The notes beneath the pieces were generated by a model. That model was not told where the DNA came from, ran no database searches, and was given only the letters and a program-made list of their open reading frames with translations. Below, in pieces: positions 18,919-20,853 of a stretch of DNA of 64,000 nt (the first letter of the stretch is position 1; every line of letters starts with the position of its first letter). This DNA is from Oceanicella actignis (GTDB taxonomy: Bacteria; Pseudomonadota; Alphaproteobacteria; Rhodobacterales; Rhodobacteraceae). The position numbers and the translations under genes were made by a program. The DNA is taken from contig NZ_VNHJ01000011.1 of NCBI RefSeq assembly GCF_008124525.1, positions 1 through 64,000 on the forward strand, given 5' to 3'.

Positions 18919-19204
18919 TGCCGGCGCCGCGCGCCGTTGGCGCTGCGCGACGTGGTGACTGGCGCGGGGTTTAGTGCGCGCAAGGGCGGGCGTCAACCGG
19001 GAATTTTCCGGCGCGCTCGCGCGCCCGCCCCTTGCGCCCCGCCCTGGCGATCGCGGCCCCGCGCCTTGCCCGGCGCCCGTTTTCGCCCCGCGCGCGTGCC
19101 GCCGCGCCCCGTTCGCCGGACGCCCCCTTGCCTGCGGCGCGCGGCCGTGGTCTTGAGTGATCCGACGGCGCGGATCCGCGCGCCCCCGCAAGGAGCCTGC
19201 CCCC

Positions 19205-20068
19205 GTGAGCGACCAACGCCGCCCCGCGCCCTCCTCGGCCCCCACGGGCCGCCCGCCCCGCAAGCCGCGCTGGGCCATCGAGAAGGACCGCGCGCGCAAG
19301 GCCGGCCCCGAGACCGTCTGGCTGTTCGGCCTGCACGCGGTGCGCGACGCGCTGCTCAATCCGGCGCGGGTCAAGCGGCGGCTGATCGTCACGCGCAACG
19401 CCGCCGACCGCCTGGGCCCCGAGGCGCTGGCCGCCGCCGGCCTCGAGCCCGAGATCGCCGACCCGCGCCGCTTTCCCGCGCCGCTCGACCCGCAATCGGT
19501 GCATCAGGGCGCCGCGCTCGAGGTCGAGCCGCTGGACTGGGGCGATCTCGAAACGCGCTGCGCGCCCGCGCCCGGCCGCCCCGCGCCCGTGGCCGTTCTG
19601 CTCGACCGCGTGAGCGATCCGCACAATGTCGGCGCCATCCTGCGCTCGGCCGAGGTGTTCGGCGCCTGCGCGGTGATCGCGCCCGCGCGCCATTCGGCGC
19701 CCGAGACCGGCGCCTTGGCCAAGAGCGCCTCGGGCGCGCTCGAACGCCAGCCCTATCTGCGCGTGCGCAACCTGGCCGATGCGATGGAGCGGCTGCGGGC
19801 CATGGGCTATCGCATCGTGGGGCTGGACGGGGCCGCCGACCGGACGCTGGCGCAGGCGCTGGCCGGCCCGCTGCGCGAGGGCGCGCCGCTGGCGCTGGCG
19901 CTGGGCGCCGAGGGGCCGGGCCTGCGCGCGCGCACGCGCGAGCTGTGCGACGCGCTGGCGCGCATTCCCGCCGCCGGAGAGTTCGGCTCGCTCAACGTCT
20001 CGAACGCCGCCGCGGTGGCGCTGTATGCGGCGCGCGCGGCGGATGTGAGCGAGCGCAACAATTCGTGA
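19205..20068 (+). CDS. rlmB: 23S rRNA 2'-O-methyltransferase RlmB (SpoU/TrmH family)
   Basis: 287 residues. A substrate-binding N-terminal domain (VWLFGLHAVRDALLNP) precedes a SpoU knotted methyltransferase domain with VLLDRVSDPHNVGAILRSAE, ALGAEGPGL and the closing SLNVSNAAAVALY. RlmB methylates G2251 of 23S rRNA. The start is a GTG with AAGGAG nine bases upstream. The in-frame GTG at 19157 lacks one. The first 25 residues are basic and disordered. A terminator-bearing candidate small RNA follows its stop. Confidence 0.92.
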   Translation: MSDQRRPAPSSAPTGRPPRKPRWAIEKDRARKAGPETVWLFGLHAVRDALLNPARVKRRLIVTRNAADRLGPEALAAAGLEPEIADPRRFPAPLDPQSVHQGAALEVEPLDWGDLETRCAPAPGRPAPVAVLLDRVSDPHNVGAILRSAEVFGACAVIAPARHSAPETGALAKSASGALERQPYLRVRNLADAMERLRAMGYRIVGLDGAADRTLAQALAGPLREGAPLALALGAEGPGLRARTRELCDALARIPAAGEFGSLNVSNAAAVALYAARAADVSERNNS

Positions 20069-20114
20069 TGATTCCGTGAGACTTCTTTAATTTCTTCGCG
20101 CGAGACTCCATATT

Positions 20115-20205
20115 GGTGACGAGGCGGAAAGCGATACGCCTTTCGCTTCATCACCACTGTCCCTCGTTCCGACTTCGCGCCCGCTTCATGCGGGCGCTTT
20201 TTTTT
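20115..20205 (+). ncRNA. Candidate small RNA: long hairpin, linker, intrinsic terminator
   Basis: Bases 20115-20133 and 20137-20155 form a 19-position stem with two mismatches, two G-T pairs and an ATA loop. A 21-base linker containing CCCTC follows, then a perfect 8-bp GC stem (20177-20184 with 20190-20197) and eight T residues. The stretch is far less GC-rich than its surroundings and contains no credible gene. A CATATT at 20109-20114 with TTTAAT 17 bases before could be its promoter. The shape matches Hfq-type sRNAs. A structured rlmB 3' UTR is the alternative. I do not recognise a named family. Confidence 0.5.
20177..20205 (+). terminator. Strong intrinsic terminator
   Basis: GCGCCCGC, loop TTCAT, GCGGGCGC, then eight consecutive T. 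It is the best factor-independent terminator I found in the window. It ends rlmB and/or the candidate small RNA. Confidence 0.9.
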
Positions 20206-20331: not shown

Positions 20332-20853
20332 ATGACGACGCCCCGGACCCCCGCCCCCGAAGCCCTCGACGCCCCCATCGACGACGCCGCCCTGCGCGAG
20401 ATCCTGCGCGGCGCGCGCACCATCGCCATGGTCGGCGCCTCGCCCAACGAGCTGCGGCCCTCGTTCTTCGTCGCCCGCTATCTCAAGCTCAAGGGCTACC
20501 GCGTGCTGCCGGTCAACCCGGCCCATGCGGGCAAGACCATGCTGGGCGAGACGATCCTGCCCTCGCTGGGCGCGATTCCGCCCGAGGCGGGCGAGGTGCA
20601 GATGGTGGACATCTTCCGCCGCTCGTCCGAGGCCGGCGCGATCGTGGACGAGGCGCTGGAGACGCTGCTGGAGCGCGGTCTGCGCACGATCTGGATGCAG
20701 ATCGGGGTCGAGGACCCCGCCGCCGCGGCGCGCGCCCGGGCCAGGGGCGTGCGCACGGTGATGAACCGCTGCCCCAAGATCGAATACCAGCGCCTGTTCG
20801 GCGAGCTGCGCTGGGGCGGATTCAACACCGGCATCATCTCGTCGAAGCTGTAA
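20332..20853 (+). CDS. CoA-binding domain protein (YccU-like)
   Basis: 173 residues with a Rossmann-type CoA-binding domain. TIAMVGASPNELRPSFFVARYLKLKGYRV is followed by LPVNP, VQMVDIFRRS and WMQIGVED, then RCPKIEY near the end. Such proteins resemble the CoA-binding part of succinyl-CoA synthetase. Their role is not established. metY begins 75 bases downstream after a structured leader, so co-transcription is possible. Confidence 0.88.
   Translation: MTTPRTPAPEALDAPIDDAALREILRGARTIAMVGASPNELRPSFFVARYLKLKGYRVLPVNPAHAGKTMLGETILPSLGAIPPEAGEVQMVDIFRRSSEAGAIVDEALETLLERGLRTIWMQIGVEDPAAAARARARGVRTVMNRCPKIEYQRLFGELRWGGFNTGIISSKL

Follow-up and report, generated by a model that had tools for sequence, protein, structure and literature searches.

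Closest described systems

In the passages cited here, StsR (formerly RSs0827) of Rhodobacter sphaeroides is described as a small RNA (sRNA) under the control of RpoHI and RpoHII that binds UpsM and the dcw leader and promotes cleavage by RNase E (PMC8307010; PMC8625941). The binding to both partners is documented in the cited parts of three papers (PMC8307010; PMC11354728; PMC8625941), and the first of these, in the sections used, also gives a length of 72 nt, binding by Hfq and induction in stationary phase and under stress (PMC8307010). UpsM (RSs0682) derives from the 268-nt leader of mraZ, just upstream of that gene, as stated in the passage cited (PMC5089854). According to the published work on R. 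sphaeroides, an RNase E site is opened by this pairing, with the result that dcw mRNA is lowered and growth slowed; the rpoE mRNA, paired from 10 nt downstream of its GTG, has also been published as a target. StsR links stress to cell division via RNA in one studied species.

Two other sRNA families show sub-threshold matches in the window, i.e., in the whole stretch of 64,000 nucleotides of Oceanicella actignis (contig NZ_VNHJ01000011.1) analyzed here, and both were rejected. SorY (Rfam RF02651, named there singlet oxygen resistance RNA Y) is an sRNA of R. sphaeroides, but its match scores 22.8 bits against a gathering score of 111 and it occupies a separate locus in that species (C4:1632645); among the 394 family genomes searched with it, only R. 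sphaeroides 2.4.1 rises above the cut-off. The alphaproteobacterial family MmgR/suhB (RF00519) matches over the linker and the terminator, at 23.5 bits against a gathering score of 41.

The locus in Oceanicella actignis

The segment at 20115-20205 lies between two open reading frames of the same strand, which we take to be rlmB, as named in the original prediction, and presumably the gene of a CoA-binding (YccU-like) protein. Judged from its letters and those of its relatives, this segment holds a conserved gene for an sRNA, preceded by an RpoH-like promoter sequence of its own, from which a transcript is predicted (Table 1). As first noticed, it is richer in AT than its surroundings (GC 0.58, vs. 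0.74 across the window), and its 91 nt fold with -44.2 kcal/mol, vs. a shuffled mean of -24.9 (sd 3.18, z -6.07), none of 200 dinucleotide shuffles being as good. The near-perfect stem of 19 positions with a 3-base loop that had been proposed can be found in the fold of 20115-20155 (17 pairs interrupted by two 1x1 mismatches and capped by a 3-nt AUA loop); however, the lowest 6 of these pairs probably lie outside the RNA since transcription is predicted to start near 20122.

Between the hairpin and the terminator, the predicted fold leaves a C/U-rich linker single-stranded except for a weak 3-bp hairpin. The claim that this linker, with its CCCTC, is complementary to binding sites was borne out, as it is both the most conserved part of the RNA and complementary to the probable target discussed below. 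The terminator, made of 8 bp, a 5-nt loop and 8 T at 20198-20205, had been called the strongest intrinsic terminator of the window and is indeed first among the 7 candidates defined as runs of at least 5 T on both strands (hairpin of -19.4 kcal/mol, vs. -12.9 for the runner-up). No tRNA was detected at the segment, and Rfam at gathering cut-offs returned only two tRNAs anywhere in the window. Plasmid records gave 0 matches to the segment, and the RNA string of the seed turned up in the literature search solely in work on peanut microRNA.

Table 1. Positions of the predicted sRNA gene, its elements and its neighbors in the window.
Feature	Position	Strand	Basis or remark
rlmB (23S rRNA methyltransferase-like), upstream neighbor, presumed	19157..20068	+	Open reading frame
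-35-like element CTTTAA	20085..20090	+	TTT at -36..-34 where RpoH logos have TTG
-10 element TCCATAT (A-12 and T-9 of RpoH-type promoters)	20107..20113	+	Motif search over loci
Predicted sRNA, StsR-type, 84 nt	20122..20205	+	Promoter-based +1; model match spans 20115-20203
5' hairpin within the predicted transcript, 7 + 3 bp, AUA loop	20123..20147	+	Fold of the 84-nt form; without the GGAAC loop of most relatives
Longer 17-bp hairpin of the original prediction	20115..20155	+	Fold; base probably upstream of +1
Conserved core/seed CACTGTCCCTCGTTCCG	20155..20171	+	Sequence comparison of loci
Predicted pairing stretch for this genome's own mraZ (dcw) leader	20153..20178	+	-37.9 kcal/mol, 0/300 shuffled leaders
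Intrinsic terminator GCGCCCGC-TTCAT-GCGGGCGC + 8 T	20177..20205	+	Fold, alignment of relatives, terminator ranking
CoA-binding (YccU-like) protein gene, downstream neighbor, presumed	20332..20853	+	Open reading frame

Promoter and predicted start site

An unsupervised motif search over 109 loci recovered a TGCCTATAT-like -10 element at a steady distance, with its key A and T each at 0.98, together with TGTTCACAA-like elements about 42 nt upstream of it. In a scan weighted for the -10 element, 108 of the 109 loci score near CCYATNT, a result that is partly circular because the weighting favors the same pattern. The column consensus of 108 aligned promoters shows C-36 at 0.73, T-35 at 0.96 and T-34 at 0.80. 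For comparison, the RpoHI/RpoHII promoter logo of R. sphaeroides, as given in the cited part of its source, has C-14, T-13, A-12 and T-9, with TTG at -35 (PMC3441632); the window promoter fits this logo at -10 and has TTT rather than TTG at -35. Counting the T of the -10 element as -9 puts +1 at 20122 and gives 84 nt in the window and in R. sphaeroides alike, a rule-based estimate. The 5' end at 20115 that had been assumed would thus need to be moved downstream, as the -10 element at 20107-20113 places +1 near 20122.

Further upstream, from about -69 to -40 relative to the predicted start, TCAC can be found in 100 of the 109 relatives (12 expected from letter shuffles) and TCA-N8-TYA in 36 of them (1 expected). 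This direct-repeat-like element upstream of the RpoH-type promoter sequence is maybe the site of a response regulator. The same stretch in the window contains neither TCAC nor TCA-N8-TYA. Just upstream of its -35 element, at 20066-20079, the window has TGA-N8-TGA, which the cited part of PMC9275681 gives as the motif of the cell-division regulator CenR. This occurrence may be due to chance, since its first TGA is the stop codon of rlmB, and CenR was rejected as a regulator on this ground and because the motif is present in only 1 of the 109 loci within the tested stretch.

Conservation in the Rhodobacteraceae

A DNA search of 295 family genomes gave a match in 146, and among the matches listed, coverage comprises the linker and the terminator and excludes the hairpin. 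In total 115 loci were examined, namely 30 from the DNA search (L001-L030), five from a pattern scan (Rubrimonas cliftonensis, Cereibacter ovatus, Cereibacter johrii and two metagenome-assembled Rhodobacteraceae) and 80 further matches selected by hand, mostly passing over those to the terminator only. The core with a downstream T run is present in 110 of the 115; the five left out are L030, L081, L095 and L099, which match in the terminator only, and L129. A repeat of the Rubrimonas locus (L042, identical to L002) was omitted from counts of 109. CTGTCCCTCGTTC is identical in all 110 kept loci, an invariance that is partly the product of how the loci were chosen, because they were found by similarity to the core. 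Six genomes (G023, G085, G196, G199, G207, and G253) have two DNA matches each, one of which covers approximately the terminator only (query 111-147).

Regarding the neighborhood, a relative of rlmB lies upstream in 30 of the 34 loci that span 2.7 kb or more, at a distance of some 50 to 1200 nt, and one of the four long loci without it begins too near the RNA to show it. As rlmB can be about 1.2 kb off or not found within the stretch, the RNA is not simply the tail of rlmB. It could be argued that the segment is merely the terminator and 3' UTR of rlmB, with no separate transcript, as it begins 47 nt past the rlmB stop codon with no terminator seen between; this reading is nevertheless very improbable, given that relatives in which rlmB is about 1.2 kb off or was not found keep both the RNA and the RpoH-type promoter sequence.

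Downstream, the gene of the CoA-binding protein can be found on the same strand in 92 of the 110 loci, at 20 to 131 nt from the RNA among the long loci listed. Such an arrangement would suit a cis-acting leader or attenuator of this gene, whose terminator would block transcription or let it through, as the terminator of UpsM does for dcw. Against this, 18 of the 110 loci show no such gene within the available DNA (a short stretch or a diverged protein may account for some of them), the seed has its match in the dcw leader, and StsR is called an orphan sRNA of R. sphaeroides in the cited part of PMC8625941. A purely cis-acting leader is for these reasons considered unlikely, while the sRNA may act both in trans and as a cis leader of the CoA-binding gene.

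A covariance model (R1) was built from 42 loci, excluding the window, that had been picked for the presence of GGAAC at one fixed offset and whose 5' region aligns without gaps. Applied to the window, R1 retrieves the sRNA copy with 53.1 bits (E 1.1e-10), its sole other match being at chance level (10.2 bits, E 2.6). One copy is present in 90 of the 100 family genomes tested, all of them at least 90% complete; across the class, a copy appears in 2 of 114 genomes, both of Rhodobacteraceae and one of them the window's own, in a search whose filters may lose weak matches. The comparison yields a model that Rfam seems to lack, since no Rfam family reached its cut-off at the window sRNA.

The structure of the sRNA is under selection in the relatives. 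Among the 42 loci, double-sided changes occur at every one of the 10 pairs of the 5' stem and 78.3% of the stem cells pair; over the whole structure, 131 cells are changed on both sides, vs. 46.7 in shuffles, and pairing falls from 88.2% to 32.6-46.8% when the partners are slid by 1 to 3 columns. Selection on structure had been deduced from G-T pairs in the stem; the conclusion holds through the 10 of 10 stem pairs that vary on both sides in relatives, whereas G-T pairs in one sequence are no evidence for it. Covariation and conservation in relatives, on which the original prediction had staked the gene, are both present. The 19-position stem could not be upheld as an architecture of the family, being a variant of the window's lineage that is probably cut short by the start site.

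Probable identity with StsR

In Cereibacter (Rhodobacter) sphaeroides 2.4.1, whose genome was recognized by a 99.6% match of its first contig to the 114-kb replicon of this strain, the copy lies at C4:858048-858137, between rlmB and the CoA-binding protein gene, so that the gene order rlmB - sRNA - CoA-binding protein is common to this genome and the window; mraZ is at 694.9 kb. From its position, its promoter type and its complementarity to UpsM and dcw, the gene at 858 kb in R. sphaeroides can be inferred to be stsR (RSs0827). As to position, RSs2461 lies beside RSP_0847 according to the cited passage of PMC3320616 and at 2597.5 kb according to that of PMC9275681. Linear interpolation by hand between RSs0682 and RSs2461, on the assumption, itself deduced, that RSs numbers run along the chromosome, would put RSs0827 near 850 kb, vs. 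858 kb for the gene. None of six coordinate strings around 858.0 and 694.5 kb is present in the main text of PMC9275681.

It is highly likely that the window sRNA is an ortholog of StsR, with its own predicted promoter of RpoH type (heat, oxidative and stationary stress), a 5' hairpin, the single-stranded seed CACUGUCCCUCGUUCC and an intrinsic terminator. The two share their neighbors, the core CACUGUCCCUCGUUCCG, an RpoH-type promoter sequence and complementarity to the mraZ leader/UpsM; they differ in the 5' hairpin, which in the window has another sequence and is devoid of the GGAAC loop found in R. sphaeroides. The candidate, put forward as a new sRNA, does stand as an sRNA gene with promoter-like sequence and terminator, but is very probably not new, if it is indeed the one known as StsR in R. 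sphaeroides. Hfq binding, also proposed for it at first, is published for StsR.

The predicted length of the R. sphaeroides RNA is 84 nt including 8 U, or 76 without them, vs. 72 nt published for StsR. This difference would be expected if the gene were another, unnamed sRNA of the Rhodobacteraceae that also pairs with the dcw leader, StsR being elsewhere. Position, promoter class and UpsM complementarity all coincide with StsR, however, and the chance of an unrelated sRNA falling within 10 kb of the interpolated position is <1% by a hand estimate, which makes a distinct sRNA quite improbable. With regard to the published rpoE target, the rpoE-chrR pair was not found in the R. sphaeroides genome used, although it is listed as 100% complete: two ChrR families gave 0 matches and three sigma-factor families gave 15, 27, and 10, of which 12 of the 15 loci of the first family were inspected and those of the other two were considered by place only. 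The pair may be masked in this genome or have been overlooked.

Pairing with the dcw leader

The mraZ leader of R. sphaeroides holds GAACGGGACAGUGAA, which is antisense to the seed with a 2-nt bulge, and a second, exact match of 12 nt, GGACAGUGAAGG, which is probably outside UpsM because it lies near the presumed mraZ start. From the location of this second match, StsR could also cover the ribosome-binding region of mraZ.

The gene mraZ was found in 28 of the 30 genomes searched, and 27 genomes with both mraZ and an sRNA locus were used to compare the 24-nt seed region with the 600 nt upstream of the mraZ domain match. Seventeen of these leaders pair better than shuffles (at most 5 of 100 as good) and the other 10 have no significant site; two loci in this set (G207 and G122) are short and their stretch may be misplaced. 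When the 18-nt core was used with 400-nt stretches, 16 of 26 leaders reached at most 3/60, vs. 7 of 104 control stretches, i.e., antisense leaders (1/26), downstream stretches (0/26 and 2/26) and far-upstream ones (4/26). In this second comparison G207 was left out for its short locus, and the stretch of G122, whose locus is also short, may be misplaced. Altogether, the comparison suggests the presence of the RNA in the 90 sampled family genomes mentioned above and of a recognizable dcw target site in about two thirds of those tested.

Within the window's own genome, the outcome depends on the length used. Shuffles as good amount to 0/300 with 26 nt (Table 1), 3/100 with 24 nt and 7/300 with 21 nt, while the bare core is not above shuffles (23/60 with 18 nt and 123/300 with 16 nt); these five tests are related and not independent. 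Significance here depends on including the adjoining GACUUCGC, which runs at its end into the terminator arm. Part of the leader site, GAAGUCGGA-N7-CGAGGGAC, coincides with the base of a hairpin that precedes TTTT and can be read as a putative terminator of the leader.

By analogy with R. sphaeroides, for which these steps are published, the stress sigma factor RpoH would transcribe the sRNA in the window's organism, the seed would pair with the dcw leader and UpsM, and the leader would be refolded and cut by RNase E, resulting in less division mRNA.

A putative pseudoknot that locks the seed

In the 5' hairpin region of 98 of the 109 loci, a GGAAC can be found that is complementary to GUUCC of the seed. 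In 88 of these 98, it lies in the apical loop of the minimum-energy fold, and in 49 it ends a 7-nt loop. The 7-nt form has 1-2 nt before the loop strand, none between the loop strand and the 3' arm, and a long crossing loop over the stem, which is the geometry of a classical H-type pseudoknot. The window copy departs from this form of the family, with no GGAAC complementary to the seed GUUCC in its hairpin loop. The comparison thus suggests a knot-like structure in most relatives that is missing from the window. Alternatively, loop and seed could pair between two molecules.

Five of the six pairs of the pseudoknot are invariant in the 42 loci, which were themselves chosen for GGAAC. The sixth joins the base before GGAAC with the base after GUUCC and is, from loop to seed, C-G in 70 loci, U-A in 10, U-G in nine and a mismatch in nine (Fisher p about 1e-6, relatedness not being removed). 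On a poorly supported tree of short CoA-binding-protein fragments (78 rows), parsimony gives 12 changes of the seed base, and only 1 independent pair falls on supported branches (sign test p 1). The covariation of the sixth pair may thus reflect common descent.

Tentatively, and with somewhat more doubt than conviction, it can be proposed from these modeled folds that in most RNAs of the StsR type the seed is locked by the RNA itself, in an H-type pseudoknot into which the dcw leader swaps, and that the window's lineage has an unlocked, constitutively open StsR. The hairpin loop, typically NYGGAAC, would mimic the target and bind GUUCCR within the seed, with CACUGUCCCUC remaining in the crossing loop. 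A bound dcw leader would replace the pairing between loop and seed, the R. sphaeroides leader having its own GAAC/GGAAC beside the seed matches. In most relatives, the hairpin loop may keep hold of the 3' half of the seed up to its displacement by the leader. The window RNA would have no such lock, leaving its seed unbound by the loop.

Should the pseudoknot exist, it would be an unusual route for an sRNA to gate its own seed. In the literature search, nothing relevant surfaced on the conservation of StsR among the entries listed, and StsR and pseudoknot are co-mentioned in a single review, in unrelated places; the primary StsR paper lay outside this search and may already cover conservation or structure.

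If the proposal is true, the window's lineage, like Rubrimonas and a few others, would be a natural experiment on the role of the lock. The GGAAC loop is absent, and other stems are present, in the window, Rubrimonas (L002), L003, L004, L005, L016, and L041, and altered loops can be found in L025, L089, and L157. Among the loci devoid of GGAAC, L110 combines a UGAAC loop with a GUUCA seed, a compensated variant in which loop and seed are still complementary.
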